Source of the DNA: an uncultured Bifidobacterium sp.
GTDB lineage: Bacteria; Actinomycetota; Actinomycetes; Actinomycetales; Bifidobacteriaceae
NCBI RefSeq assembly: GCF_945269915.1
Contig: NZ_CALYOY010000025.1
Location: forward strand, 1-33,594
Direction: 5' to 3'
DNA length: 33,594 nt
Each line of letters begins with the position of its first letter. The stretch's first letter is position 1. Positions 13,570-27,722 of the stretch are shown piece after piece. Under the pieces are notes generated by a model. It did no database searches and was not told the origin of the DNA. It saw only the letters and a program-made list of their open reading frames with translations. A program made the translations under genes and the position numbers.

Positions 13570-13587
13570 GTCCGTCGGGGGTATCGG

Positions 13588-13627
13588 AATCGGTCGTGCC
13601 ATGGCTGGTGCGACCGATTTCCTTTGC
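13588..13627 (+). terminator. Probable terminator after the hydrolase gene
   Basis: AATCGGTCG (13588-13596) pairs with CGACCGATT (13611-13619). Inner T-G/G-T and CC/GG pairs extend the stem around the loop ATGGCT, and TTTCCTTT follows. The T tract is interrupted, but the position 19 nt after the stop codon fits termination of the LacI-linked module. Confidence 0.6.
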
Positions 13628-13755
13628 CGCCGACAGAGGGGTGGGATGGACAAAAACCTGGGCGTGTTGTTGGGTGGCATGACATCAAGTGAGGGGTGCC
13701 CCTCGATTTTTCCCGATATGCCGCGGCTTTGTGCCTGGACGGGTTTTCCAAGATA

Positions 13756-13771
13756 TGTGATTCAAGTCACA
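13756..13771. promoter_or_regulatory. CRP/FNR- or Rex-type operator upstream of nrdD
   Basis: TGTGATTCAAGTCACA is an exact TGTGA-N6-TCACA palindrome. This half-site arrangement is shared by CRP-family sites and by Rex operators (TGTGAA-N4-TTCACA). Its right arm overlaps a candidate -35 GTCACA (13766-13771) placed 16 nt before TATATC (13788-13793). It lies 12 nt upstream of the first NrdR box. A related site occurs upstream of ndh. Confidence 0.6.
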
Positions 13772-13783
13772 ATCTTCATTGTT

Positions 13784-13799
13784 GCACTATATCTAGTGC
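13784..13799. promoter_or_regulatory. NrdR box 1
   Basis: GCACTATATCTAGTGC is a near-perfect palindrome matching the NrdR consensus (ACACwATATnTnGTGT-like). NrdR is the ATP/dATP-sensing repressor of ribonucleotide reductase genes, and its sites come in pairs about 31 nt apart, as here. The box overlaps the candidate -10 TATATC of nrdD. Confidence 0.8.
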
Positions 13800-13814
13800 T
13801 CCTTTTTCGGTTCT

Positions 13815-13830
13815 CCACTAGATATTGGGG
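13815..13830. promoter_or_regulatory. NrdR box 2
   Basis: CCACTAGATATTGGGG starts exactly 31 nt after box 1, three helical turns, the spacing expected for cooperative NrdR binding. Its right half is weaker than box 1. The rest of the 13570-13934 interval shows only the terminator, the TGTGA-N6-TCACA site and the leader of nrdD. Confidence 0.7.
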
Positions 13831-13934
13831 CATGAGGTGGTAGAGTGGTCTTGTCATCGCAGATGACAAGGATGTAGTTCGCGCCCTTGAAGGGTTGTGC
13901 GGACGTCGGTTTTTTAGCAATGCGAGGAGTGGCG

Positions 13935-16346
13935 ATGAATACGCAGGTGGTGGCAAGCCGTGCAGAGGAGGAGGGCATCTCCGAGCATGACTCGGTCAAT
14001 GGCATTCTGGTCGAGAAGCGTGACGGCCGAATCGTCGATTTCGACCCCGTCAACATCATGAATGCCATCGAGGCCGCCTTCAAGGACGTCATGGATGAGG
14101 TCGGTCCCGACGACCGCCAGGGGATCCGCAGGATGGCCCTGACCGTCCAGTCGGAGATCCACGACCGGTACACCAACCCGGTCAAGATCGAGGACATCCA
14201 GACCCTGGTCGAGCATGCCCTGGTCAATGCCCATCTCTACGAGATCGCCCGTTCCTACACCTCCTACCGCCTGGACCGCGACATCCAGCGCGCCAAGGCC
14301 ACCGACGTGAACGAGGCCGTCCACCGCCTGACCAGCAAGGACGAGACCCTGGTCCGGGAGAACGCCAACAAGGACGCCAACGTCTACGCCACCCAGCGTG
14401 ACCTCCTGGCAGGGGCCGTCTCCAAGGCTTCGGCCTTCAGCATGCTGCCCAAGGATGTCTCCAACGCCCACATGAAGGGCGACATCCACTTCCATGACGC
14501 CGATTATTCGCCCTTTACGGCCGAGACCAACTGCTCCCTGCCCGATTTCGGCGACATGCTGGAGCACGGGTTCGAGCTGGGCAACGCCATGATGGACTCG
14601 CCCAAGTCCATCGGCACGGCCGCCACCCAGATCACCCAGATCATCAAGGACATCGCGGGATCCCAGTACGGCGGCCAGACCGTCAACCGCTGCGACGAGA
14701 TGCTCGACCGCTACGCCCGCCTGGACTACAAGAAGAACTATGCGATGGCCGAGGCCGTCCTGCCCGACGAGGAGCCCATCGAGGTGGCCAAGGAGGTCGT
14801 CCGCGGGCTCAAGGCCCGCGAGGCCGACTGGCTCCACCTGGATGACCGAACCCCCATCGGTGAGGATTCCCCCTTCGACCTGGATGCCCCCGAGATGATC
14901 CGCCTGCGTCAGGTCTATGCCAAGATCCTGACCCGGAAGAACATCTACGATGCCATGCAGACCATGGAGTACCAGATCAACTCCAACCGCGTCTCCAACG
15001 GGCAGACCCCCTTCGTCACCGTGGGCTTCGGCCTGGGCACCTCCTGGTTCGCCCGCGAGATCCAGCGTTCCATCTTCCTGATCCGCATCCGGGGCCTGGG
15101 CAAGGACCGCCACACGGCCATCTTCCCCAAGCTGGTCTTCACCATCAAGCACGGCCTGAACGCCGACGAGGGTGACCCCAACTACGACATGAAGCAGCTG
15201 GCCCTGGAGTGCTCCACCAAGCGTATGTACCCCGATGTGGTCTTCTATGAGAACCTGGTCAAGATCACCGGTTCCTTCAAGGCCCCCATGGGCTGCCGCT
15301 CCTTCCTCCAGGCCTGGACCAACCCGGAGACCGGCGAGGATGAAGAGGACGGACGCATGAACCTGGGCGTCGTCACCGTCAACATCCCCCGTATCGCCCT
15401 GGAGTCCCGCGGCGACAGGGACCGGTTCTGGAAGATCTTCGACCAGCGCATGGAGGTGGCCCACCACGCCCTGCAGTTCCGCATCATGCGCTGCAAGCAG
15501 GCCACGCCCATCAACGCCCCGACCCTCTATCAGTTCGGCGCCTTCGGCAGGTTGAAGCCCACCGACAGCGTCGACACCCTCTTCCGCAACAGCCGCTCCA
15601 CGGTTTCGCTGGGATACATCGGTCTCTACGAGGCCACCAGCGTCTTCTACGGCAAGGATTGGATGCAGGACCACACCTGGGATCCGGAGGGCAAGGAGTT
15701 CGCCCTGAGCATCGTGCGCCGGATGAACCAGCTCTGCAAGCAGTGGGAGAAGGCCGAGGGCTATCACTATTCGGTCTATTCCACCCCGGCCGAGTCCCTG
15801 ACCGATCGCTTCTGCCGCATGGACAAGGAGAAGTTCGGTTCCGTCGAGGGCGTGACCGATCACGACTTCTATACCAACAGCTTCCACTACCCGGTATGGC
15901 TGCGCCCCACCCCCATGGAGAAGCTCACCTACGAGCGTGACTTCCCCTATCTGGCCTCGGGCGGGTTCATCAACTACTGCGAGTTCCCCTCCATGCAGCA
16001 GAATCCCAAGGCCCTGGAGGCGGTCTGGGATTATGCCTATCAGATCGGCATCGGCTACCTGGGCACCAACACCCCGATCGACCACTGCTTCGTCTGTGGC
16101 TACGAGGGTGACTTCGAACCCACCGAGGAGGGTTTCAAGTGCCCCGAGTGCGGCAACGACGATCCCGAGAAGTGCAACGTGACCAAGCGCACCTGCGGTT
16201 ACCTGGGCAATCCTGTTCAGCGGCCCATGGTTCACGGACGCCATGAGGAGATCGCCCATAGGGTCAAGCACATGGAGGGCGAGACCGGCCATGTGGTCCT
16301 GAAGGACGGCACCACCAAGGAGTGGTTCGACGACAAGGCCGAATAG
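13935..16346 (+). CDS. nrdD: Anaerobic (class III) ribonucleoside-triphosphate reductase
   Basis: NrdD makes deoxynucleotides without oxygen, using a glycyl radical and usually formate. The 803-aa protein has an N-terminal ATP-cone (VEKRDGRIVDFDPVNIMNAI onward, residues ~25-115), the catalytic barrel with MGCRSFL, and a C-terminal zinc site made of two CxxC pairs (CFVC...CPEC). The radical site is RTCGYLGNP near residue 753. ATG 13935 follows GAGGAG. The usual partner nrdG lies 106 nt downstream, after a strong hairpin. Two NrdR boxes and a redox-type palindrome upstream indicate control by nucleotide level and probably redox state. Full length and apparently intact. Confidence 0.97.
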   Translation: MNTQVVASRAEEEGISEHDSVNGILVEKRDGRIVDFDPVNIMNAIEAAFKDVMDEVGPDDRQGIRRMALTVQSEIHDRYTNPVKIEDIQTLVEHALVNAHLYEIARSYTSYRLDRDIQRAKATDVNEAVHRLTSKDETLVRENANKDANVYATQRDLLAGAVSKASAFSMLPKDVSNAHMKGDIHFHDADYSPFTAETNCSLPDFGDMLEHGFELGNAMMDSPKSIGTAATQITQIIKDIAGSQYGGQTVNRCDEMLDRYARLDYKKNYAMAEAVLPDEEPIEVAKEVVRGLKAREADWLHLDDRTPIGEDSPFDLDAPEMIRLRQVYAKILTRKNIYDAMQTMEYQINSNRVSNGQTPFVTVGFGLGTSWFAREIQRSIFLIRIRGLGKDRHTAIFPKLVFTIKHGLNADEGDPNYDMKQLALECSTKRMYPDVVFYENLVKITGSFKAPMGCRSFLQAWTNPETGEDEEDGRMNLGVVTVNIPRIALESRGDRDRFWKIFDQRMEVAHHALQFRIMRCKQATPINAPTLYQFGAFGRLKPTDSVDTLFRNSRSTVSLGYIGLYEATSVFYGKDWMQDHTWDPEGKEFALSIVRRMNQLCKQWEKAEGYHYSVYSTPAESLTDRFCRMDKEKFGSVEGVTDHDFYTNSFHYPVWLRPTPMEKLTYERDFPYLASGGFINYCEFPSMQQNPKALEAVWDYAYQIGIGYLGTNTPIDHCFVCGYEGDFEPTEEGFKCPECGNDDPEKCNVTKRTCGYLGNPVQRPMVHGRHEEIAHRVKHMEGETGHVVLKDGTTKEWFDDKAE

Positions 16347-16378
16347 GCCCTGATCAAGCAGTTCAAGAATCAGTACTG

Positions 16379-16413
16379 ATGGCGGGCCATGCAGTGATGG
16401 CCCGCCATTTCCG
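16379..16413 (+). terminator. Strong hairpin between nrdD and nrdG
   Basis: ATGGCGGGCCAT (16379-16390) pairs perfectly with ATGGCCCGCCAT (16397-16408) around the loop GCAGTG, followed by TTTCC. The T tract is short, so it may be a partial terminator or a 3'-end-protecting processing element that lowers nrdG expression relative to nrdD. Confidence 0.65.
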
Positions 16414-16452
16414 TGTCCGGTGACCAGGCCGGACGGATTACGGAGGACGGCA

Positions 16453-17178
16453 ATGGGCAAGCAGGGTGTCATGAGAAAGACCGGTGCCGCGGGTCATCGT
16501 GATTTCGCAGCCGACGAGCGGGGTCGGGGCCCGGGAATCCCCTCCCTGCTGACCAACAACCCCAAGGCGGGTCAGTGGGATGGGCGTCAGCTGAGCCGGG
16601 GCATCATCGCCGATTACAAGCGGTTGGTCATGACCGACGGGGAGGGCATACGGTGCTCCCTCTACGTCAGTGGCTGCCCCTTCCGCTGTCGGGGGTGTTA
16701 CAACTCCTCCATCTGGGACTTCCGGGCGGGCCACCCCTACACCCAGAAGCTGGAGGACCAGATCATCAAGGACCTCTCCCTCTCCTATGTGCAGGGCATC
16801 ACCTACCTGGGCGGGGAGCCCCTCCTCAACACCCCCATCCTGCTCAGGCTCTCCAAGCGGATTCGCCGGGAGTTCGGCCATGACAAGGACATCTGGTGCT
16901 GGACGGGCTACACCTGGGAGGAACTGAACCGGCCCGGGGAGACCCCGGACAAGGCCGAGCTGATCTCCTACCTGGACATCCTGGTCGACGGCCGTTATCT
17001 GGAGGACCAGAAGAACACCCTCCTCCAGTTCCGCGGGTCGTCCAATCAGCGCATCATCGACGTGCCGAGGTCTCTTGAGGAGGGGCATCTGGTTCCCTGG
17101 GCCAAGATTCACGACCAGACCAGGTTCATCCCGGAGACCTACAGCAGGAACAGGGACCAGGAACAGAAGCGGGGCTGA
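16453..17178 (+). CDS. nrdG: Anaerobic ribonucleotide reductase activating protein (radical SAM)
   Basis: NrdG uses S-adenosylmethionine and a [4Fe-4S] cluster to install the glycyl radical on NrdD. The 241-aa protein has the radical-SAM motif Cys75-x3-Cys79-x2-Cys82 (SGCPFRCRGCYN). The SAM-binding glycine motif is TYLGGEPLL, and DILVDGRY lies in the C-terminal half, as in NrdG. The N-terminal ~45 residues are longer than in E. coli NrdG (154 aa) but typical of actinobacterial forms. ATG 16453 follows GGAGG (16442-16446). It forms the nrdDG unit with the upstream gene, with the hairpin between them. Confidence 0.95.
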   Translation: MGKQGVMRKTGAAGHRDFAADERGRGPGIPSLLTNNPKAGQWDGRQLSRGIIADYKRLVMTDGEGIRCSLYVSGCPFRCRGCYNSSIWDFRAGHPYTQKLEDQIIKDLSLSYVQGITYLGGEPLLNTPILLRLSKRIRREFGHDKDIWCWTGYTWEELNRPGETPDKAELISYLDILVDGRYLEDQKNTLLQFRGSSNQRIIDVPRSLEEGHLVPWAKIHDQTRFIPETYSRNRDQEQKRG

Positions 17179-17252
17179 CCGGGGGCGATGCTGGCCCTGC
17201 CCTGCCGGGATCGTCCGCGGCCTGTCCCTGAACGTCGCCTTGCCGGGGCACA

Positions 17253-18788
17253 ATGGTGGCTATGACTGATGAGCATGATCACGACTCGAAACCCGAACTG
17301 CCCAAGGACCTGAGGGTACGGTTCTGCCCCTCTCCCACGGGCACCCCCCATGTGGGCATGGTCCGCACGGCCCTTTTCAACTGGGCCCAGGCCCGTCATT
17401 CCAAGGGAACCTTCGTCTTCCGCATCGAAGACACCGATGCCCAGCGCGACAGCGAGGAAAGTTACCAGCAGATCCTGGATGCTCTGAGGTGGCTGGGTCT
17501 GGATTGGGACGAGGGTGTTGAAGTGGGTGGCCCCGACGGCCCCTACCGCCAGTCCCAGCGTGGCGACATCTACCGCAGGGTGGCCCAGCGGCTCCTGGAT
17601 GCGGGGTACGCCTACGAGTCCTATTCCACCGCTGACGAGATCAGGGAGAGGAACGTGGCCGCCGGCCGCCCCGAGGCCTTCGGGTATGACGGGTATGACC
17701 GCAATCTGAGCGAGGAGGAGCGCCGGGCCTTCCGCGACCAGGGTCGCAAGCCCGCCCTGCGCATCCGCATGCCCGATGAGGACGTGGCCTTCGACGACCT
17801 GATTCGCGGCCGCATCGAGTTCAAGGCCGGGTCCGTCCCCGACTATGTGATCGTCCGTCCCAACGGGGACCCCCTCTATACCCTTACCAACCCGGTTGAT
17901 GACGCCATGATGCGGATCAACGTGGTTCTGCGTGGGGAGGACCTCCTCAGCTCCACCCCCAGGCAGATCGTCCTCTACCGGTACCTGATCGAGCTGGGTG
18001 TGGCCCAGGCCATGCCCCTCTTCGGCCACATGCCCTACGTCATGGGTCAGGGCAATAAGAAGCTCTCCAAGCGCGACCCCGAGTCCAACCTCTTCCTGCA
18101 TCGGGAGCATGGGTTCATCCGTGAGGGGCTCCTGAACTACCTGGCCCTCCTGGGCTGGTCGATCGGCCCCGACCGGGACGTCTTCTCCATGGAGGAGATG
18201 GTCGAGCACTTCGACATCCGCGACGTCAAGGCCAACCCGGCCCACTTCGACATCGACAAGGCCATCGCCATCAACGCCGAGCACATCCGCATGCTGGAGC
18301 CCCAGGACTTCCTGAACCGTTCCCTGCCCTACCTGAAGAGGGACGGACTGGTCTCCGCCGAGACCTGGGACGACCTGACCGATCATGAGCGCCGGATCCT
18401 GGCTGCCGCTGCCCCACTGGTCCAGCCCAGGGTCCGTCTCCTGGGCGAGGTCTCCGGGATGATGGGGAGCCTGCTCAGCGATGCCGACTACATCGAGCCC
18501 GACCCGGATGCCCGCAAGCAGCTCAAGGACTCTGCCGGAGCCGTTCTCGACCTGGCCCTGCGGACCCTCCAGGAGGTGCCCGAGCAGGATTGGATCACCG
18601 ACCACCTCCATGATCTTCTGACCCAGGCCCTGGTGGACCAGGGTGGCTACAAGCCCCGGCTGGCCTTCGGTCCCGTCAGGGTGGCCGTCTCCGGTCGTCG
18701 GGTTTCGCCGCCCCTCTTCGAATCACTGGAGATCATTGGCAAGAGCACAACACTCCAGCGTTTGACCAACTTGCGTCGGCACCTCTGA
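17253..18788 (+). CDS. gltX: Glutamate-tRNA ligase
   Basis: GltX charges tRNA-Glu with glutamate. The 511-aa class I synthetase has [15 protein letters not shown] (HIGH-type motif near residue 32) and KKLSKRD (KMSKS-type motif near residue 270). Between them lie FRIEDTD and [13 protein letters not shown], which are diagnostic. The helical anticodon-binding domain fills the C-terminal third. ATG 17253 and ATG 17262 are both possible starts; neither has a strong Shine-Dalgarno. A tRNA-Glu gene lies only 70 nt downstream, a pleasing enzyme-substrate neighbour. Bifidobacteria usually also use an amidotransferase for Gln-tRNA, so the enzyme may be non-discriminating; this is inference. Confidence 0.96.
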
Positions 18789-18799
18789 GCGGGTATATT
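18771..18799 (+). promoter_or_regulatory. Candidate promoter of the tRNA-Glu/tRNA-Gln pair
   Basis: TTGCGT (18771-18776) and TATATT (18794-18799) are 17 nt apart. The -35 lies in the last codons of gltX and the -10 just after its stop. Transcription would begin about 50 nt before the tRNA-Glu gene. The -10 is good and the -35 weak. Confidence 0.4.
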
Positions 18800-18858
18800 A
18801 TCTTTTTGTTGTGCTGCTGACCTGTTGAACCGGGTCGGTGCGCTGCGGAAAAGTGAAA

Positions 18859-18931
18859 GCCCCCGTCGTCTAGCGGTCTAGGACTACGCCCTCTCACGGC
18901 GCCAACACCGGTCCAAATCCGGTCGGGGGTA
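18859..18931 (+). tRNA. tRNA-Glu (anticodon CUC)
   Basis: The 73-nt cloverleaf folds as acceptor GCCCCCG/CGGGGGT, D-stem GTCT/GGAC, anticodon arm ACGCC-CTCTCAC-GGCGC with anticodon CTC, and T-arm ACCGG-TCCAAAT-CCGGT. CCA is not encoded. Two oddities: position 27-43 is an A/C mismatch, and the T-loop begins TCC instead of TTC, so the usual U55 is C. It may be a minor isoacceptor, slightly degenerate. It lies directly after gltX. Confidence 0.85.
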
Positions 18932-18972
18932 CGATATGCGGTAACCGTCCAAGCGGGTATTGCATAGCCAAT

Positions 18973-19044
18973 TGGGGTATGGTGTAATTGGCAACACAGG
19001 TGATTCTGGTTCATCCATTCTTGGTTCGAGTCCAGGTACCCCAG
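18973..19044 (+). tRNA. tRNA-Gln (anticodon CUG)
   Basis: The 72-nt cloverleaf folds as acceptor TGGGGTA/TACCCCA, D-stem GTGT/ACAC, anticodon arm GGTGA-TTCTGGT-TCATC with anticodon CTG, and T-arm CTTGG-TTCGAGT-CCAGG. The discriminator is G, and CCA is not encoded. It is 41 nt after tRNA-Glu and probably co-transcribed with it. Confidence 0.93.
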
Positions 19045-19053
19045 CGAGCATTC

Positions 19054-19088
19054 AGCCGCGGTCTTTTCTATGAGGCTGCGGCTTTTCC
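19054..19088 (+). terminator. Terminator after the tRNA pair
   Basis: AGCCGCGG (19054-19061) pairs with CTGCGGCT (19076-19083, one G-T pair) and is followed by TTTT. It lies 10 nt after tRNA-Gln, as expected for the end of a tRNA transcript. Confidence 0.75.
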
Positions 19089-19158
19089 GTCCTTGAGACC
19101 TTCTTCTGCCAGTGCCGGATGATAGACTTGGTTTTCTGACGGGCTTGCGCTGTCCGAT

Positions 19159-19178
19159 TGTCATAAAGGTCACATAAT
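19159..19178. promoter_or_regulatory. CRP/FNR- or Rex-type operator and -10 upstream of ndh
   Basis: TGTCATAAAGGTCACA (19159-19174) matches TGTGA-N6-TCACA at 9 of 10 half-site bases. CATAAT (19173-19178) overlaps its right end and could be a -10 element for ndh, 160 nt upstream of the start codon. No convincing -35 was found at 16-18 nt. The rest of the 19089-19334 leader shows nothing else I can support. Confidence 0.5.
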
Positions 19179-19334
19179 TGGCTTTTTGTTTGGCCTGCAA
19201 GTCCAGCCTTTCGGGGCACCCGCACCGATACCATGGAGGTACCGGGTTGGCGGGGAGTCAGTAGGATGGAGATTTTCCCGGTTGTCCCAGAAACCAGCTG
19301 TATTGGACCGACTGCACAAAGGTTGTGGAAGATT

Positions 19335-20510
19335 ATGAAAACTATCGCCGTGTTGGGCGCAGGATATGCCGGCATGCGCGCCGCAAAGAAGCTGGCGCAT
19401 GCAAATCTCGATGCCCGCATCATCCTGGTCAATCGGAACCCCTATCACTATGAGGCGACCCAGCTCCATCAGGTTGCCGCCGGCACCAAGGAACCGGCCG
19501 ATGTGACCTTCGATATCCGTAAAGCCGTCTCCCCCAGAATCGAGGTGCTCATCGACACGGTGACCGGCATCGATCAGGACAAGCGGCAGGTCGGCCTGGG
19601 GAAGCATGAGCCCCTCCGGTACGACTACCTGATCAACGCCCTGGGCTTCGAATCCGAGACCTTCGGCATCAAGGGGGCCGAGGAGAACGGCTGGCCCCTG
19701 GTCGACATCGACACGGCCCTGGCCGCCAGGCGCCGCCTGGAGAACACGCTGGCCAATTACAGGAACAGCCACGACCCCAACGACCTCCATGTGGTGGTCT
19801 GCGGTGCCGGCTTCACCAGCATCGAGTACCTGGGGGAGCTGGTCTACAGGATGCCCAAGCTGGTCGCCAAGTACGACCTGCCGGCCGACCAGGTCAAGAT
19901 CATCTGCGTCGAGGCCTCGCCCAAGATCCTCCCCATGTTCTCGCAGAACCTGGTCGACTGGGCGGTCAACTACCTGAAGAAGAAGGGCGTCGAGTTCCAT
20001 ACCTCGACGGCCATCACCGAGGTCAGGCCCGGAGCCGTGGTCAGCAACGACCAGGAGTTCAGGGCCAACACGATCATCTGGACCACAGGGGTGCGTGGTA
20101 GCCACATCATTGCCGATTCCGGCTATAATCAGAAGCGTAACCGTGTTGTGGTGGAGGATGACCTCTCGCTCACGGACCATCCCGAGGAATTCCTCATCGG
20201 CGATGTCAGCGCAGTCCCTGATCCTGAATCGGGCAGGCTCTTCCCCACCACGGCACAGATTTCGATTGCACAGGCTGATACGGCTGCCGCCAATGTCATC
20301 GCTAGGGTGCAGGGGCGTCAGACGCAACGGTTCAGGTTCAAGAGCATCGGCACCGTCTGCTCCCTGGGCCCCCAGGCCGGCGTGGCCGAGATCGACATGA
20401 TGGGCAAGTGGAAGTTGAAGGGGGCGGTGGTCGGTATCGTCAAGAAGATCGTCAACGACCGTTCCGTTCTGGAACTCGCCAACGTCAAGACCATGTTGGA
20501 GAGCAACTGA
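19335..20510 (+). CDS. ndh: Type II NADH dehydrogenase (NADH:quinone oxidoreductase)
   Basis: NDH-2 is a membrane-associated, non-proton-pumping flavoprotein that passes electrons from NADH to quinone. The 391-aa protein has the FAD dinucleotide-binding motif VLGAGYAG at residues 5-12. A second, NAD-binding motif (VVVCGAGFTSIE) lies near residue 153. The late FAD motif EEFLIGDVSAV and the FRFKSIGTVCSLG segment are typical of the family. ATG 19335 follows GGAAG; longer frames lack support. It lies 48 nt before cydA in the same orientation, so ndh and cydABCD probably form one respiratory transcript. Other members of this oxidoreductase family are possible but less likely here. Confidence 0.9.
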   Translation: MKTIAVLGAGYAGMRAAKKLAHANLDARIILVNRNPYHYEATQLHQVAAGTKEPADVTFDIRKAVSPRIEVLIDTVTGIDQDKRQVGLGKHEPLRYDYLINALGFESETFGIKGAEENGWPLVDIDTALAARRRLENTLANYRNSHDPNDLHVVVCGAGFTSIEYLGELVYRMPKLVAKYDLPADQVKIICVEASPKILPMFSQNLVDWAVNYLKKKGVEFHTSTAITEVRPGAVVSNDQEFRANTIIWTTGVRGSHIIADSGYNQKRNRVVVEDDLSLTDHPEEFLIGDVSAVPDPESGRLFPTTAQISIAQADTAAANVIARVQGRQTQRFRFKSIGTVCSLGPQAGVAEIDMMGKWKLKGAVVGIVKKIVNDRSVLELANVKTMLESN

Positions 20511-20558: not shown

Positions 20559-22055
20559 ATGCTTAACGTTCTGGGGTTGTCGCGATTCCAATTCGCGATG
20601 ACGACCGTATTCCACTTCTTCTACGTGCCCCTTTCCATTGGCCTGGCCCTGTGTGTGGCCATCATGGAAACCCTGTACGTGGTCAAAAAGAAGGAAATCT
20701 ACAAGAAGATGACCAAGTTCTGGGGGAAGATCTTCCTTCTGAGCTTTGCTGTCGGTGTGGTGACCGGCATCATCCAGGAGTTCCAGTTCGGCATGAACTG
20801 GTCCAACTATTCCAGGTTCATGGGCGACATCTTCGGCGCCCCCCTGGCCATCGAGGCCCTTCTGGCCTTCTTCATGGAGTCGACCTTCATCGGTGTCTGG
20901 GTCTTCACCTGGAACCGCTTCAAGCCGGCCGTCCATGCGGTCTTCATCTGGCTGACCTTCCTGGGTTCCTCGGTGTCGGCCATCTGGATCCTGGCCGCCA
21001 ACAGCTTCATGCAGCACCCCACCGGCTTCGAGATCAACAAGGCCACGGGCCGGGTCCGCATGACCAGCTTCTGGGATGTTCTGGGCAACCCGCAGCTCTG
21101 GCGCGAGTTCCCGCACGTCTTCTTCGGGGCGGTGCTGACCGGTGGCATGGTCCTGGTCGGCATGAGCGCCTGGGGTCTCCTGCGCGCCCACAAGCAGGAG
21201 CAGGCCGGTAAGGCGGAAGCCGCTCCCGCCGTTGAGGGGGGCGGGTCCGAGCAGGTCAGTCAGCGTGTCTTCTACACCCGTTCGATCAGGCTCAGCGCCA
21301 TCATCGCCCTGATCGGTTCGATCCTGGTCATCATTGCAGGCGATCTTCAGACCTCCTTCATCATCGACGACCAGCCCATGAAGTTCGCTGCCACCGAGGG
21401 CATCTACGAGGACACCAAGGATCCCGCCCCCTGGGCGGTGGTCTCCCTGATCAACGAAAAGGACAAGACCTCCAAGGGCATCGAGATTCCCGAGATGCTC
21501 TCCCTCCTGTCCTACCACAGCACCTCCGGCTCGGTGAAGGGCATGAATTCCGTCAACGAGCAGCTCCACCAGCAGTATGACGGCAAGTTTGGCAAGGACA
21601 TGAACTACTACGTGCCGGTCACGACGCTCTTCTGGAGCTTCAGGTTCATGGCCGCGGTGGGCTTCGGCGTCCTGCTCCTGTCCATCCTGGTGCTCTGGTT
21701 CACCAGAAAGTCCAAGGACACCCTATGGTCCAGCAACTGGAAGCTGTGGATCCTGGGCATCTGCACCTATCTGCCCTTCGTGGGCAACACGGGTGGATGG
21801 CTGATCACGGAGCTGGGACGTTACCCCTGGCTGGTCTACGGTTTGCAGACCATCGCCGACGGGGTCTCGCCCACGGCCACGGTCCCCAACCTCCTGTTCA
21901 CCAACATCGTTTACTTCCTGCTCTTCCTCTTCCTGGGAGGGGTCATGATCTTCTACTCGCGCAGGGTGCTCCACCAGGGCCCTGACTACCAGGGTGAAGG
22001 CCTCAGCCTACCTGTGCAGGCCAGCAGGAACGAGAGGAGAGTGGCATTAGCATGA
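20559..22055 (+). CDS. cydA: Cytochrome bd quinol oxidase subunit I
   Basis: CydA carries the three hemes of cytochrome bd and reduces O2 to water with quinol. The 498-aa protein has the N-terminus LSRFQFAMTTVFHFF with His19 (heme ligand), and PHVFFGAVLTGGM with a second heme histidine. FRFMAAVG supplies the heme methionine, and GGWLITELGRYPW (near residue 410) is the conserved GWxxxExGRxPW motif. A short charged linker (residues ~210-235) replaces part of the long loops of E. coli CydA. ATG 20559 follows GAGGAAG. Its stop overlaps the cydB start (ATGA). A decayed paralogue lies at 27176-27722. Confidence 0.97.
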   Translation: MLNVLGLSRFQFAMTTVFHFFYVPLSIGLALCVAIMETLYVVKKKEIYKKMTKFWGKIFLLSFAVGVVTGIIQEFQFGMNWSNYSRFMGDIFGAPLAIEALLAFFMESTFIGVWVFTWNRFKPAVHAVFIWLTFLGSSVSAIWILAANSFMQHPTGFEINKATGRVRMTSFWDVLGNPQLWREFPHVFFGAVLTGGMVLVGMSAWGLLRAHKQEQAGKAEAAPAVEGGGSEQVSQRVFYTRSIRLSAIIALIGSILVIIAGDLQTSFIIDDQPMKFAATEGIYEDTKDPAPWAVVSLINEKDKTSKGIEIPEMLSLLSYHSTSGSVKGMNSVNEQLHQQYDGKFGKDMNYYVPVTTLFWSFRFMAAVGFGVLLLSILVLWFTRKSKDTLWSSNWKLWILGICTYLPFVGNTGGWLITELGRYPWLVYGLQTIADGVSPTATVPNLLFTNIVYFLLFLFLGGVMIFYSRRVLHQGPDYQGEGLSLPVQASRNERRVALA

Positions 22056-23104
22056 GTATCCTACAAGGTTTATGGTTCTTCGTCATTGGCCTGTTGTTCG
22101 CCGGATTCCTCCTGCTTGAGGGATTCGACTTCGGTGTGGGCATGGCAACCCGGCTGGTCGCCCGCGACGGTGACGAGCGCGCCACCTTCATGAGGGCCAT
22201 CGGCCCCCACTGGGACGGCAACGAGGTCTGGCTGATCACCGCCGGAGGCGCCATGTTCGCGGCCTTCCCGCTCTGGTACGCCTCCCTCTTCTCCGGGTAC
22301 TACATTCTCCTCTTCCTGGTCCTGGTCGGCCTGATCCTGCGTGGCGTCTCCTTCGAGTTCGCCAACCACGCCCTGACCTCGCGTGAGCGTGGGGTCTGGC
22401 AGTGGGCCAACTTCATCGGCTCCGTCTTCGCGCCCTTCTTCCTGGGCATGATGCTGACCAGCCTGATCCAGGGCATCCCCTTGGACAAGAACGGTGACGC
22501 CTGGCCCGGGTTCTTCGGTGTGGTCAACTGGCTCTCCGTCGTGGGTGGCGTGGCCGTCGTCTTCTTCAGCTTCGTGCACGGTCTGCACTTCCTCAGCCTG
22601 AAGCTGGGCCCCATGGATTCGCGCCGGATGCTCAACATCAGCGAGAAGGTCTACTGGATCGCCTACCCGGCCCTGGTCGTCTTCGTCCTTCTGGCCATCT
22701 TCAGGACCGACTTCTACACGGCACGGCCCATCTCCACCTGGCTGATCACCGTGATCATTCTGGCGGCGACCATCTGTGGCCACGTGGCTGTGACCAGGAA
22801 GCGTGGCGGGTTCGCCTTCACGGCCTCCGGCATCACCCTGATGGCCATCATCGCCTTCATCTTCAACGGGCTCTTCCCGCGGGTGATGATCGGGACGGAT
22901 CCGGCCACGAGCATCATGATCCAGGACGCCTCGGCATCCCCCTACACCTTGAAGATCATGACCGTGGTCCTCTGCATCTTCCTGCCCATCATGCTGGCCT
23001 ACTTCATCTGGAGCTACTTCATCCAGCGCAAGCGCCTGGCCACCGATGGCGCCCATCTGTCCGTGGCCGGTCCTGCCGCGGTCAGCGCGACCGTGGCCCG
23101 GTAG
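22052..23104 (+). CDS. cydB: Cytochrome bd quinol oxidase subunit II
   Basis: CydB is the hydrophobic partner of CydA and supports heme and oxygen access. The 350-aa protein has about 8-9 membrane segments. It opens with FFVIGLLFAGFLLLEGFDFG and continues with IGPHWDGNEVWLITAGGAMF in pieces, both signatures of the family. The FSFVHGLHFLSLKLG segment is also typical. Length is normal. ATG 22052 overlaps the cydA stop by 4 nt, implying translational coupling. It is followed after 54 nt by cydD. Confidence 0.97.
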   Translation: MSILQGLWFFVIGLLFAGFLLLEGFDFGVGMATRLVARDGDERATFMRAIGPHWDGNEVWLITAGGAMFAAFPLWYASLFSGYYILLFLVLVGLILRGVSFEFANHALTSRERGVWQWANFIGSVFAPFFLGMMLTSLIQGIPLDKNGDAWPGFFGVVNWLSVVGGVAVVFFSFVHGLHFLSLKLGPMDSRRMLNISEKVYWIAYPALVVFVLLAIFRTDFYTARPISTWLITVIILAATICGHVAVTRKRGGFAFTASGITLMAIIAFIFNGLFPRVMIGTDPATSIMIQDASASPYTLKIMTVVLCIFLPIMLAYFIWSYFIQRKRLATDGAHLSVAGPAAVSATVAR

Positions 23105-23158: not shown

Positions 23159-25084
23159 GTGATTGACAAGAGTCTCTTCCGGTTCGCCGGAATCAGACGG
23201 ATCATGGGCCTCCTGGCCACGCTTTCCCTGGTGCAGGGACTCAGCGTGGTCGGTCAGGCCTATGGCCTCACCCTGGCACTGGTGCAGATCTGGCACCTGC
23301 ATGGCCTCCACACCCTGGTCAGGCCGGTTCTGATCTTCTTCACGGCCTTCGCCATCCGCCAGCTGTGCGACGTGGCCAAGCAGCGGGTGGCCACGGACTA
23401 CGCCGACTATGTCGTCGGCGAGCTCAGGCCGCAGATCCAGCGCAAGGTCTTCCGTCTGGGGCCCGCGGCCCTGGCGCAGCGGGGGACGGGCTCGGCCGTG
23501 ACCATGCTGATCGACGGGCTGGATGAGGTCAGGACCTACGTTTTCACGGTCCTCCCCAAGATGATGGACATGGTCTTCATCCCCCTGATGATTCTGGTGG
23601 TGGTCTGGATCCAGGACACGGTCAGCGGCATCGTCCTCCTTCTCATGCTCCCCCTCCTCTTCTTCTTCATGGCCATCCTGGGCATGGCCGCCCGTGACAG
23701 GTCCAACAAGCAATACGCCCAGTTCCGCAAGCTGAACACCCGGTTCATGGATACGGTCCTGGGCCTGCCCACCCTGAAGATGCTGGGGATCAGCGAGGAG
23801 TACGAGGACGAGATCTACTCGGTCTCCGACAGGTTCCGCAAGCGGACCATGAGCGTGATCCGCGTGGCCATGACCTCCACCTTCGCCCTGGACTTCTTCG
23901 CCACCCTGGCCATCGCCATCATGGCCGTCTTCCTGGGCAACAACCTGATCGACGGAACGGTGGCCCTCTTCCCGGCCCTGCTGGCCCTGATCCTGGCCCC
24001 CGAGTACTTCATGCCCATCCGGCAGTTCGGCGACGACTACCATGCCACCCTGAACGGGAAGAACGCCCTGAACGACATCGTGACCATGCTGGACACCCCC
24101 GAGCCCGACCACCTGGACGACCTGGACTGGCAGGGGTGGGGCAGCGAGAGCCACCTGACCGTCGAGGGCATGGACTTCGCCTACCCGGGGCCCAAGCCCG
24201 AGGAGGGGCAGGCATCCGGCGGCTCGCAGATGGACGCCATCGCCAAGTCCAGCGGCAAGAAGAAGCGCAAGGGCCGCAAGAAGTCCGCAATCGACGCCAC
24301 ACCCGTTCCCGCGCCGGGCCGGGACCTGGATTCGACCCGGACCTGTGGGGACGGGGCCGAGGAGGGCGCCCGTCAGCCCGATGCCCTCCACCATGTCTCC
24401 TTCAGCCTGAGCGGGCTGACCAAGGTGGCCGTGGTCGGGAGGTCCGGGGCCGGAAAGTCCACCCTGATGAACCTCCTGGCAGGCTTCAACATTCCCCAGG
24501 CAGGCAGGATCGACCTGGACGGACGGCTCCTGGAGCACTTCAACGCCCGCGCCTGGCAGGGCCACATCAGCTACATCCCGCAGAACCCCTACATCTTCAG
24601 CGGCACCGTGGCCGACAACATCCGCTTCTATGATCCGGATGCCGACCAGGCCGCCGTGGCCCGGGCGGCCGACCAGGCGGGTCTGACCGACTGGGTGGAG
24701 ACCCTTGCCGAGGGTCTGGAGACCAGGATCGGCGAGGGGAACCGCGGCATCAGCGGCGGCCAGGCCCAGCGCATCGCCCTGGCCCGGGTCCTCCTGGACA
24801 GGACCCGTGAGATCCTCCTCTTCGACGAGCCCACGGCCCACCTGGACATCGAGACCGAGTACGAGCTGAAGAAGACCCTCCTGCCCATCATGGAGGGGCA
24901 CCTGGTCATCTTCGCCACCCACCGCCTGCACTGGCTGGCCGACGTGGACCAGGTCATCATGCTGGACGGTGGCCGGGTCGTGGCCCAGGGCAGGCCGGAG
25001 GAACTGATGGGGGAGGGCGGTCCGCTGGATGCCCTGATCGAGGAGATGGGGGGTAACCAGATTGCCGACTACCAGCAGGACTGA
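23159..25084 (+). CDS. cydD: ABC transporter CydD, cytochrome bd assembly
   Basis: CydDC is a heterodimeric inner-membrane ABC exporter that moves thiols (glutathione/cysteine) and is required to assemble cytochrome bd. The 641-aa half-transporter has an N-terminal six-helix membrane domain (residues ~15-300). Its ATPase has Walker A GRSGAGKST (~426-434), signature ISGGQAQRIALARVLL (~530) and Walker B ILLFDEPTAHLD (~550). Between the domains is an unusual lysine-rich linker (KKKRKGRKKS) followed by Pro/Asp-rich sequence, about 50 residues in all. The start is GTG 23159. Its end overlaps cydC by 23 nt. Assignment as CydD rather than CydC follows order and length. Confidence 0.93.
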   Translation: MIDKSLFRFAGIRRIMGLLATLSLVQGLSVVGQAYGLTLALVQIWHLHGLHTLVRPVLIFFTAFAIRQLCDVAKQRVATDYADYVVGELRPQIQRKVFRLGPAALAQRGTGSAVTMLIDGLDEVRTYVFTVLPKMMDMVFIPLMILVVVWIQDTVSGIVLLLMLPLLFFFMAILGMAARDRSNKQYAQFRKLNTRFMDTVLGLPTLKMLGISEEYEDEIYSVSDRFRKRTMSVIRVAMTSTFALDFFATLAIAIMAVFLGNNLIDGTVALFPALLALILAPEYFMPIRQFGDDYHATLNGKNALNDIVTMLDTPEPDHLDDLDWQGWGSESHLTVEGMDFAYPGPKPEEGQASGGSQMDAIAKSSGKKKRKGRKKSAIDATPVPAPGRDLDSTRTCGDGAEEGARQPDALHHVSFSLSGLTKVAVVGRSGAGKSTLMNLLAGFNIPQAGRIDLDGRLLEHFNARAWQGHISYIPQNPYIFSGTVADNIRFYDPDADQAAVARAADQAGLTDWVETLAEGLETRIGEGNRGISGGQAQRIALARVLLDRTREILLFDEPTAHLDIETEYELKKTLLPIMEGHLVIFATHRLHWLADVDQVIMLDGGRVVAQGRPEELMGEGGPLDALIEEMGGNQIADYQQD

Positions 25085-26909
25085 GGGCGGCCAGGCGGCC
25101 TCCACCAGGGCCGGGCGCCGCACCAACTATCTGAACATCTGGCACAGGGACCACTGGTTCTGGCCCTACCTGCGCCAGAACAGGGGCCGGCTCGCCCTGA
25201 TCTTCCTCCTGGGCACCATCACCTTCGTCTGCGCCGCGGGGCTCATGTTCACCTCCGGCTTCCTGATCAGCCGGTCGGCCCGGCACCCCTACAACATCTT
25301 CGCGGTCTATGTGCCCGTGGTCCTGACCAGGGCCTTCGGCATCGGCCGCCCGACCTTCAAGTACCTGGAGCGGATCAAGAGCCACGACTGGGTGCTCCGG
25401 GTGGTCTCCAAGCTGCGGGTCCAGCTCTACCGGACCCTCTCCAAGGACGCCGCCTTCCTCAACGAGCACGAGCGGACCGGCACCGTTCTGAGCATGCTCT
25501 CCGACGACCTGGACCACCTGGAGAACTTCTACCTGCGCACCATCTTCCCCACCGTCGTGGCCTACCTGATGTGGCTGGTGGTCACCATCGCGGTCGGGGT
25601 CTTCTCCTGGATCACCTCCCTCCTCCTCTTCCTCCTCTTCGCCCTGATCCTGATCCTGGTCCCACTGGTTTCCCTGGCCTACTCGGACAGCCGGTATGCC
25701 GAGGAGAAGTCCATGCAGCAGGACCAGTACACCAGGGTCGCCGAGAACTACATGGGGCTGGGCGACTGGGTCATCACGCACCGCCAGGACCGGTTCGTCG
25801 ACACGGCAGCCGATGACTTCCGGGGAATCGCCCGTGAGCGGCACGATCAGAAGCGCTTCGAGCGGTGGAGGAACCTCTGCATCCAGATGATCTTCGCCCT
25901 CATGGTGGTGGCCCTGATCATCGGTGGCGACATCCTCATGACCGGCTCGACCTCGGTGGCCGACTTCGCCGCAGCCGTGGTCCTCTCGGTCTTTCCCCTG
26001 GTCGACTGCTTCATCGTGGTCTCCCAGGCCGTGGCCGAGGTTCCCCTCTACACGGATTCCCTGAACCACCTGAACGATCTGACCAACCGGGTCGAATCCC
26101 GCCAGCGGCCCCGGATGGACCAGACCAGGCTGGACGGCCCGGTCCGCACCATCGACTTCGACCATGTCAGCTTCTCCTACGGGCCGGATGACCCCCTTCT
26201 CCTGGACGACTTCTCCCTCCACATCGAGGCCGGGCAGAAGGTGGCCCTTCTCGGGCCCAGCGGTGAGGGCAAGACCACGGTCCTCCAGCTCCTCCTGGGC
26301 GACCTCCGGCCCTCCAAGGGCAGGATCCTGGTCAACGGTACCCCGGTGGACGCCCTCCAGGACCAACGCCCCGAACTCTTCGGCTACCTGAACCAGCAGG
26401 CCTTCCTCTTCAACACGACCATCGCCTCCAACGTCCGTCTGGGCGCCCCCGAGGCCACTGACGACCAGGTCCGCCAGGCTCTGAAGGCGGTGCAGCTGGA
26501 CCAGTACGTGGAGTCCCTGCCCGAGGGGATCGACACCCCGGTCGACGAGGCCGGCAACCGGCTCTCCGGTGGGCAGCGGCAGCGCCTGGCCCTGGCCAGG
26601 ATCGTGCTCAAGCGCACCCCGATCGTCCTCCTGGACGAGCCCACCATCGGGCTGGACCCCATCACCGAGCGGCGGCTGATGGAGATGATCTTCCGGGTGA
26701 GCCAGGGCCGCACCCTCTTCTGGGTCACCCACCACCTCCAGGGTCTGGAGGACGCCGACCAGGTCATCTTCATGGAGGACGGGCACATCGCCATGCAGGG
26801 TTCCCCGGTCGAGCTCTACCGGACCAACCCCCGATTCAGTGAGTTATATCGCATGGACGTCGGTGACTTGGACAAGGGTGGCTCGCGAGCGATATACCCG
26901 GAGAAATAG
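25062..26909 (+). CDS. cydC: ABC transporter CydC, cytochrome bd assembly
   Basis: This is the second half of the CydDC exporter. The 615-aa protein has a membrane domain at residues ~35-320, with a GLMFTSGFLISRSARHP stretch typical of CydC. Its ATPase has Walker A GPSGEGKTT (~398-406), signature LSGGQRQRLALARIVL (~500) and Walker B IVLLDEPTIGLD (~522). In Walker A the residue before GK is Glu where many ABC proteins have Ser/Ala/Cys. The start is TTG 25062, 23 nt inside cydD, with GGGGGG about 9 nt upstream; this implies coupling. It is the last intact gene of the respiratory cluster. Confidence 0.93.
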   Translation: MPTTSRTEGGQAASTRAGRRTNYLNIWHRDHWFWPYLRQNRGRLALIFLLGTITFVCAAGLMFTSGFLISRSARHPYNIFAVYVPVVLTRAFGIGRPTFKYLERIKSHDWVLRVVSKLRVQLYRTLSKDAAFLNEHERTGTVLSMLSDDLDHLENFYLRTIFPTVVAYLMWLVVTIAVGVFSWITSLLLFLLFALILILVPLVSLAYSDSRYAEEKSMQQDQYTRVAENYMGLGDWVITHRQDRFVDTAADDFRGIARERHDQKRFERWRNLCIQMIFALMVVALIIGGDILMTGSTSVADFAAAVVLSVFPLVDCFIVVSQAVAEVPLYTDSLNHLNDLTNRVESRQRPRMDQTRLDGPVRTIDFDHVSFSYGPDDPLLLDDFSLHIEAGQKVALLGPSGEGKTTVLQLLLGDLRPSKGRILVNGTPVDALQDQRPELFGYLNQQAFLFNTTIASNVRLGAPEATDDQVRQALKAVQLDQYVESLPEGIDTPVDEAGNRLSGGQRQRLALARIVLKRTPIVLLDEPTIGLDPITERRLMEMIFRVSQGRTLFWVTHHLQGLEDADQVIFMEDGHIAMQGSPVELYRTNPRFSELYRMDVGDLDKGGSRAIYPEK

Positions 26910-27175
26910 TCAGATTCGGATGCAACGGACTCCTGGTGAAAGAACATCAGGGTGTTCTCCGAGTTAAGGCAACGGTCAGGAATACGGATCTCCGCCGGCT
27001 TCGGCCTTGAAACTGGTTGTTCGCCCACCCATCGGTACCGGTCGACCTGCCCGGCGGAAACCCGCCTCGGAATCGGGGGTGGGCCGCCGCCAGGCGGATC
27101 TTGAATCAGGGTTCGGATCTGCCTGGATGCGCACCGCGCATCCCATCCGATGGATTCTCCGGAAAGGGAGGACCA
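26910..27175. other. Intergenic stretch after cydC, no gene seen
   Basis: This 266-nt stretch holds AGAACA-TCAGGG-TGTTCT (26941-26958), a 6-bp hairpin without a T tract, so it is a poor terminator at best. TTGAATCAGGGTTCGG near 27100 has a similar TCAGGG centre. GGAAAGGGAGGACC just before 27176 is a preserved ribosome-binding site for the decayed cydA copy, suggesting this was once its leader. Confidence 0.5.
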
Positions 27176-27722
27176 TGTTCACCGTTCCGGGCTTATCCAG
27201 ATTCCAGTTCGCCATGACGACGATATTTCATTTATCCCATGCCCCTAGTCCATCGGTCTGGCCCTGGCGGTCGCCATCATGGAGACCATCTATGCGGTGA
27301 CCGGGAAAGAGGTCCGCACGACCATGACCGAGTTCGGCAGGGGGCATCTGTGTCATCGCCCATGGCGACCTGCAGGGCGAGTTCATCGTTACCGACCAGC
27401 CAATGAAGCTGGCGGCCACCGAGGCCATCCACGAGGACACCGGCGATCCGGCCCCTCTGGCAGGCCGCGGCCCTGATCAATGAGAAGGACCACAAGGTCG
27501 AGTGGTCGGTCGGGATTCCGGGTGCCATGCCACAGTTGGCCCAAGGGAAGAAGACCGGTGCCGTCGAGGGCGTGAACACGGTCAACGAGGAGCTGCACGA
27601 GAAGTACGATGCCAAGTACGGCAAGGACATGAACCACTACGTGCCCGTCACCACCCTCTTCCGGGTATTCGGGCTCATGGTGGCCCCAGGGTTCGCCTTC
27701 GCCCCTGGAGCCCTTTACGATG
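27176..27722 (+). pseudogene. Decayed second cydA (internal deletion, frameshifts, truncated)
   Basis: Three blocks match CydA in order. 27176-27240 reads SRFQFAMTTIFHLSH, the CydA start. After a frameshift, 27250-27345 reads SIGLALAVAIMETIYAV and so on. Then a gap of some 200 residues relative to CydA leads to 27360-27455, reading GDLQGEFIVTDQPMKLAATE in pieces and then IHEDTGDPAP. After another frameshift, 27460-27715 reads EGVNTVNEELHEKYDAKYGK and then MNHYVPVTTLF. The last ~125 residues of CydA are missing. DNA differs clearly from cydA at 20559, so this is an old paralogue rather than a recent copy. The start codon and Shine-Dalgarno survive. Confidence 0.9.

Follow-up and report, generated by a model that had tools for sequence, protein, structure and literature searches.

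Introduction

In Gram-positive bacteria, the Rex regulon comprises adhE, pflB, ndh, cyd and nrdDG. Here we describe a similar target set in Bifidobacterium, beginning with a 33,594-nucleotide (nt) stretch from an uncultured Bifidobacterium sp. (contig NZ_CALYOY010000025.1; the whole stretch is called the window), in which the palindrome TGTGA-N6-TCACA stands before the anaerobic ribonucleotide reductase (RNR) gene nrdD and a degenerate copy stands before the respiratory cluster ndh-cyd. Unlike in the Rex systems, no Rex domain was recognized in any of 27 genomes of the genus, and a different protein family would act. The likeness is closer to GlxR of Corynebacterium glutamicum and CRP of Mycobacterium tuberculosis: the bifidobacterial CRP-type protein aligns end to end with GlxR, its recognition helix is near-identical, and passages of PMC7999487 and PMC4254451 give TGTGA-N6-TCACA as the sequence that GlxR recognizes. 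GlxR also activates the fermentation gene ldhA (a passage of PMC7999487). In contrast to the 27 bifidobacteria, C. glutamicum has a class III adenylate cyclase, which our control search matched, and Thr137 of GlxR is replaced by Asn or Asp in bifidobacteria.

Other regulons resemble this one in part. At both nrdD and nrdH, NrdR-like boxes stand in pairs on the downstream side of the CRP-type site, as in the NrdR regulon; however, these boxes are distinct from the palindrome. The AraQ regulon of bifidobacteria has the same TGTGA and TCACA half-sites and a connection to central carbon metabolism, but AraQ is a LacI-family protein, its sites have an N4 spacer with a CG centre, and the targets named in passages of PMC4746261 include gap, eno, pyk, ldh, tal and tkt. 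DdrI of Deinococcus radiodurans is a CRP-family protein with a reported DNA-binding form free of cyclic AMP (cAMP) (a passage of PMC11253593), although it comes from another lineage. Among the open-licence papers listed by our searches we found neither a CRP regulon of bifidobacteria nor a cyclase-less CRP acting on a Rex-like gene set. Passages of PMC4746261 cover sugar regulators and the global regulator AraQ, not adhE or the CRP protein; a 'GlxR' listed there under glycerate, in 1 of 10 genomes, is taken as a different regulator, and 'glxR' in a passage of PMC10666050 is merely named within an expression module.

Both the operator and the protein family are thus of known kinds. Based on the comparisons below, we think it likely that both sites in the window are bound by the GlxR/CRP orthologue of this genome (locus L017), and not by Rex or an iron-sulfur (Fe-S) FNR, within a fermentation/redox regulon. 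The core of this TGTGA-N6-TCACA regulon is probably adhE and pflB throughout the genus, with nrdD(G), nrdH and, more weakly, ndh-cyd added in the asteroides/indicum group. The match between half-sites and recognition helix is what leads us to pair the regulator with the operator.

Predicted operators in the window

The two sites are as follows.

13756-13771, unstranded: CRP-type operator TGTGATTCAAGTCACA upstream of nrdD, an exact palindrome with 0 mismatches
19159-19174, unstranded: TGTCATAAAGGTCACA, a CRP-type site before ndh that is degenerate, with 1 mismatch

A sequence-only reading of the window had described an exact palindrome before nrdD and a site before ndh-cyd with 9 of 10 half-site bases, and had noticed no third copy. 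All three observations were reproduced, and the two sites are the sole matches in the window at one mismatch or fewer. At two mismatches or fewer there are 9 matches, a number not above that in shuffled sequences (mean 11.2). With equal base frequencies, simple arithmetic gives a chance expectation per window of about 0.03 exact sites and about one site with a single mismatch. Judged by the window alone, the exact nrdD site is the only one above chance, and the ndh site is meaningless taken singly since about one such match is expected. With window statistics this weak beyond the exact nrdD site, the case rests on comparison between genomes.

The comparison set was 27 genomes of the genus, and the genome of the window is called G000. 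The asteroides/indicum group comprises 16 genomes (G000, G003, G004, G007-G012, G014, G015, G018-G020, G022 and G025). Judged by its Ndh, which is 90% identical to Ndh of B. indicum DSM 20214, the source of the window is a bifidobacterium of this bee-gut group.

Predicted operators of adhE, pflB and nrdH

Predicted TGTGA-N6-TCACA operators with at most one mismatch were found before adhE in 27/27 genomes (27 of 29 gene copies, 11 of them exact) and before pflB in 26/27 (3 exact), with two mismatches in the remaining genome, G013. Composition-shuffled upstream regions equalled the adhE or pflB match level in 0-2% of cases, and 210 control windows of 450 nt taken from gene bodies held no site at one mismatch or fewer and 10 at two. 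At pflB, the distance from the start of the site to Met1 is 109-113 nt, and a TA...T hexamer follows the site after 33 nt in 26/27 genomes and after 34 nt in G013. In the case of adhE, each of the 27 copies that carry a site has a TANAT element, resembling a -10 box, directly against the TGTGA half-site; the operator would then lie over the transcription start. In two adhE regions (L186 in G025 and L187 in G011) the -10/half-site block occurs again as TTATATTGTGACCGG, roughly 15 nt further upstream, which looks like a local duplication.

The class Ib RNR gene nrdH has an operator at one mismatch or fewer in 14/27 genomes, all of which belong to the asteroides/indicum group (14/16); outside this group its best sites have 2-3 mismatches. 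NrdR-like boxes lie downstream of the CRP-type site here as well. Since nrdH carries the same predicted operator as nrdD, both RNR classes share an operator in the asteroides/indicum group.

The nrdD promoter

The nrdD site is exact in 13 of the 27 genomes, every one of them within the asteroides/indicum group. It has decayed in three members of the group, to two mismatches in G009 and three each in G011 and G025. Among the 11 genomes outside the group, the nrdD upstream region of G026 has a site with one mismatch, that of G001 has two, and the remainder have 3-4. Pairwise comparison of the window's own sequence with G014 and G003 gave identities of 30/30 in the half-sites, 10/18 in the spacer and 52/150 in the flanks. 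A simple promoter scan of 13570-19400 returned nothing promoter-like before nrdD or ndh; -10 elements were therefore picked by eye, and the constancy of their spacing was examined afterwards. The nrdD region contains the following further elements.

13784-13799, unstranded: NrdR-like box 1, GCACTATATCTAGTGC, by comparison with the NrdR box consensus
13815-13830, unstranded: NrdR-like box 2, CCACTAGATATTGGGG, 31 base pairs (bp) from box 1, by the same consensus
13841-13846, plus strand: TAGAGT, picked by eye as the probable -10 element of nrdD

Each of the 13 genomes whose site is exact has 69 nt between the operator end and the -10 element; in G026 the distance to TAGGCT is 70 nt. Both NrdR-like boxes sit between the palindrome and the start codon. 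Upstream of nrdD, the best pair of such boxes is exactly 31 bp apart in 27/27 genomes, and each box departs from the NrdR consensus at 2-8 positions. NrdR-controlled RNR promoters have two boxes separated by about three helical turns ahead of the gene, an arrangement that these pairs match.

The ndh site

A strong ndh match was found in 24/27 genomes; a weak one in G024 (E 5.5e-4) was left uncounted, and G016 and G023 gave none. The position of the ndh site was compared in 13 representatives picked for differing upstream sequence, several of which are still related. Among sites that start between -195 and -165, the best has at most two mismatches in 10/13 lineages versus 9/130 control windows, and at most three in 12/13 versus 17/130. 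One representative, L048 (B. bombi), had no good site at this position. Pairwise identities among the window's own sequence, G014 and G003 were 22/30 in the half-sites, 10/18 in the spacer and 36/150 in the flanks.

19227-19232, plus strand: GATACC, picked by eye as a candidate -10 element of ndh, 52 nt beyond the site

The distance from the ndh site to this weaker by-eye hexamer is 51-52 nt in the window's genome, G014 and G003, and seven other lineages have TATACT 60-62 nt after the site. We read the ndh site as degenerate but real, on the strength of its recurring position. The proposal that nrdD and ndh-cyd have one operator shape in common held up, with the operator kept in relatives before nrdD and, by position, before ndh.

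Genome-wide distribution

The same proposal had called for a genome-wide count, and this came out above the control: at one mismatch or fewer, G000, G014 and G003 hold 33, 21 and 33 sites, versus 7 in each for the pattern with its letters in reverse order, a control that preserves base content and not dinucleotides. Genes were called with a simple method based on codon usage, which recovered 26/26 training genes and misses some genes (e.g. crp in L239). By these calls, 23 of the 33 G000 sites are intergenic, versus 16% of window 16-mers, although 2 of the 23 touch the edge of a called gene; the ten sites within genes are probably due to chance. Intergenic sites number 15/21 in G014 and 19/33 in G003, nrdD sites counted. 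Among exact TGTGA/TCACA pairs at spacings of 0-20 in G001-G004, N6 accounts for 10/55 versus 2.6 expected (p ~2e-4 against 1/21). G001 and G002 together have 8 exact N6 sites, all of them intergenic by the gene calls and one directly before adhE.

Sites in G000 precede, among others, pflB, adhE, nrdH, ahpC, pyruvate oxidase, aconitase, lactaldehyde reductase (FucO), a Zn-alcohol dehydrogenase, a lactate/glycolate-oxidase-like Fe-S protein and a ClgR-like regulator. A carbonic-anhydrase-like gene is divergent from ahpC at its site. These names come from NCBIfam, where several matches fall short of the family cut-offs owing to truncated pieces or partial alignment; the Zn-alcohol dehydrogenase and carbonic anhydrase were named by eye. 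The sites of pflB, adhE, ahpC, the ClgR-like gene and nrdD are present in 3/3 genomes (G000, G014 and G003), and that of the Fe-S protein in 2/3. Redox and fermentation genes of the type under Rex control elsewhere are represented by adhE, pflB, ahpC, nrdH, pyruvate oxidase and the lactate/glycolate-oxidase-like Fe-S protein.

Two of these sites deserve separate mention. The site of the ClgR-like gene is near-perfect and kept in 3/3 genomes (L110, L127 and L167); it may be partly coding because it overlaps the edge of a CinA-like gene (named by eye) in L110. Apart from the nrdD site, the sole exact TGTGA-N6-TCACA of G000 (L001, contig C9, 26871-26886) is flanked by a guaB-like gene, named by eye, and a 157-amino-acid open reading frame without an NCBIfam match.

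The candidate regulator

A CRP-family protein (PF00027) is encoded in 27/27 genomes, singly in 24 of them. The other three have a second, lower-scoring member (L043 in G023, L044 in G006 and L045 in G005). The sole CRP/FNR-superfamily protein of G000, on contig C5 (L017), aligns end to end with GlxR (PDB 4byy, E 3e-57). A cyclic-nucleotide-binding domain with a GlxR-like C-terminal helix-turn-helix is found in all 27 genomes, and the recognition helix is near-identical to that of GlxR. The closest solved relative is 7ets, labelled just a Crp/Fnr-family regulator, followed by GlxR (4byy, 4cyd and 3r6s) and 3d0s, which we take to be M. tuberculosis CRP. A search of the open-licence literature for '7ETS' together with 'Bifidobacterium' returned no paper. 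The sequence-only reading had named Rex or a CRP/FNR protein as the regulator; a CRP-like protein was found throughout the genus, whereas Rex and, in G000, a cysteine-bearing FNR were not.

The residues of the phosphate cassette (GE..., PRTAS) are kept, with a two-residue insertion. The position of GlxR Thr137 is Asn or Asp in 27/27 genomes, and the adjacent Asn138 is kept. Thr137 presumably corresponds to the cAMP contact T127 of E. coli CRP, an assignment that follows from the equivalence of the neighbouring residues. Passages of PMC4254451 state that GlxR N138 contacts N6 and N7 of cAMP and that it equals S128 of E. coli CRP.

The usual signal of CRP-type regulators is cAMP, and two common classes of adenylate cyclase were looked for. 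The class III domain (PF00211) was detected in 0/27 genomes, with 5/14 known genomes matched as a control, and the class IV domain CYTH (PF01928) in 0/27, with 11/14 matched. A recognized cyclase to supply cAMP was therefore absent as far as classes III and IV are concerned; classes I and II were not searched for. This result lowers the case for a cAMP-dependent CRP, not that for CRP family membership by sequence. The main text of a cyclase survey (PMC2447327) makes no mention of Bifidobacterium or longum. Downstream of adhE in G017, the first gene called is crp, and in G005 and G006 the two genes lie within ~6 kb.

Alternative explanations

The spacing of the sites fits Rex, an NADH-sensing repressor that could bind both, and the targets adhE, pflB, ndh-cyd and nrdDG resemble Rex regulons. 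Yet the N-terminal DNA-binding domain of Rex (PF06971) matched 0/27 genomes, while the control matched 7/14 known genomes (6 above cut-off), and TGTGA is followed by C, G or T in the 13 nrdD sites that are exact, where the Rex consensus has A. Rex was rejected on the missing domain; it would survive just as a diverged protein without a recognized N-terminal domain, which we regard as extremely improbable. We see equally little chance that the sites are bound by an FNR-type Fe-S oxygen sensor. Bottacini et al. suggested a putative FNR, BAST_0395, for cyd (a passage of PMC3447821), and the CRP protein belongs to the same superfamily; by position, BAST_0395 is probably this same CRP protein, for which the FNR label is ill-fitting. 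Its orthologues have no cysteine in 26/27 genomes and one in G013, so that the cysteines for a 4Fe-4S cluster are lacking and an Fe-S FNR was rejected. Its closest relatives are GlxR and CRP, with 46.8 bits to the Fnr model against a cut-off of 228, and the operator has TGTGA, not the FNR half-site TTGAT. AraQ, the LacI-family regulator of central carbon metabolism, has the consensus TGTGAGCGCTCACA with the same half-sites (a passage of PMC4746261), but its N4 spacing with a CG centre is absent from the operators here, which have N6 and variable centres. Furthermore, adhE, pflB and nrdD are unnamed among the AraQ targets in passages of that paper, and G001 and G002 have exact TGTGAGCGCTCACA sites alongside exact N6 sites. 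On spacing, AraQ is judged very unlikely.

Two further alternatives carry more weight. The regulator could be an ordinary cAMP-dependent CRP supplied by an unrecognized cyclase or from outside the cell, which would agree with the conservation of the cassette residues and of the Asn that corresponds to GlxR N138; the substitution of the preceding Thr in 27/27 genomes, the insertion in the cassette and the empty searches for class III and IV cyclases make this doubtful, though well worth keeping in mind. Alternatively, the ndh site could be a chance match, with real operators just at nrdD, adhE, pflB and nrdH. One single-mismatch site is expected per window, the lineages compared are not all independent, and asteroides-group genomes carry TGTGAGCAAGCAAACA, with two mismatches. 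In contrast, the bias in position and half-sites persists across lineages, and the distance to TATACT is constant to within 60-62 nt in seven of them, so we consider chance a sizeable but unlikely explanation.

Several observations weigh against a single CRP-type regulon. The half-sites are those of AraQ, as noted. In 13/27 genomes, including the in-group G009, G011 and G025, nrdD has no site at one mismatch or fewer. The ndh site is degenerate and variable among lineages, and in three genomes outside the ndh comparison the best site lies elsewhere: at -257 in G005 and -255 in G006 (one mismatch each) and at -136 in G017 (two). A -35 hexamer (TTGTTC or TTGCCA) is found 17 nt above the adhE TANAT in 6/27 copies only. 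About half of the 23 intergenic G000 sites stand before genes for which no redox role is evident, and the sites of pyruvate oxidase, aconitase, FucO and the Zn-alcohol dehydrogenase were seen at one mismatch or fewer in G000 only and not in G014 or G003, where the presence of these genes was unchecked. A site at one mismatch or fewer upstream of crp occurs in 1/27 genomes, which gives no signal of autoregulation. Finally, passages of PMC3447821 report that B. asteroides PRL2011 shows no major transcriptome change with oxygen and that its cytochrome oxidase is highly expressed with and without oxygen.

Proposed regulon

With these points in mind, a single CRP-type regulon with dual action is the simplest account of the predicted sites. 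The L017 protein would bind TGTGA-N6-TCACA at all sites of one regulon. At pflB, nrdD and ndh it would activate from fixed upstream positions, like a CRP activator, with site centres near -88 at nrdD, at -71 to -81 at ndh and at -53 at pflB relative to the inferred start; at nrdD, the NrdR-like boxes would lie beneath the CRP-type site. At adhE, where the operator abuts TANAT, it would act by occlusion, like a repressor. The RNR operons would have joined the regulon in the asteroides/indicum group, and the respiratory cluster would have done so weakly. That this protein binds the sites is inferred, as are the choice of promoter elements, the direction of regulation and a signal other than cAMP from a known cyclase.

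The sequence-only reading had gone on to suggest a switch between respiration and anaerobic dNTP synthesis. The common operator stands, but the opposition between the two is weakened by the site at class Ib nrdH and by the PRL2011 transcriptomes. Because of the latter, oxygen is disfavoured as the signal, as is an oxygen switch at cyd. A more far-reaching version is possible but tentative: with class III and IV cyclases lacking and its adenine pocket changed, GlxR/CRP may have moved fully off cAMP to read another metabolite or the energy/redox state and replaced Rex as master of ethanol and formate fermentation, and in bee-gut species it may have taken in both RNRs and the bd chain. The operators open a direct test of the formate/ethanol/lactate balance in bifidobacteria and of how bee-gut species fit respiration into it. 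A genus-wide CRP without a recognized cyclase also raises the question of what such a protein senses.

Gene layout of the window

The gene order is nrdD, nrdG-like, gltX-like (named by eye), tRNA-Glu, tRNA-Gln, ndh, cydA, cydB and two ABC transporter genes.

13935-16346, plus strand: nrdD, anaerobic ribonucleoside-triphosphate reductase (PF13597, E 2e-177), with glycyl radical and ATP-cone domains
16420-17178, plus strand: nrdG-like activase, start unsettled (PF13353, E 2.6e-53 over 16495-17175)
19335-20510, plus strand: ndh, type II NADH dehydrogenase-like oxidoreductase (PF07992, E 8e-40)
20559-22055, plus strand: cydA, cytochrome bd subunit I (PF01654, E 5e-154)
22052-23104, plus strand: cydB, cytochrome bd subunit II (PF02322, E 3e-89)
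23159-26909, plus strand: a pair of ABC transporter genes at the place of cydD/cydC, each with PF00005 and the first with PF00664 as well

The name cydDC is positional, after the B. asteroides arrangement in a passage of PMC3447821. On the 3' side of these transporter genes lies a second cydA remnant (27175-27694, plus strand) in three reading frames, whose pieces are 52-68% identical to pieces of the intact CydA; it is a decayed duplicate. A polyprenyl synthetase gene (PF00348; 27737-29023, minus strand) borders the cyd cluster, and its enzyme could build the side chain of a quinone.

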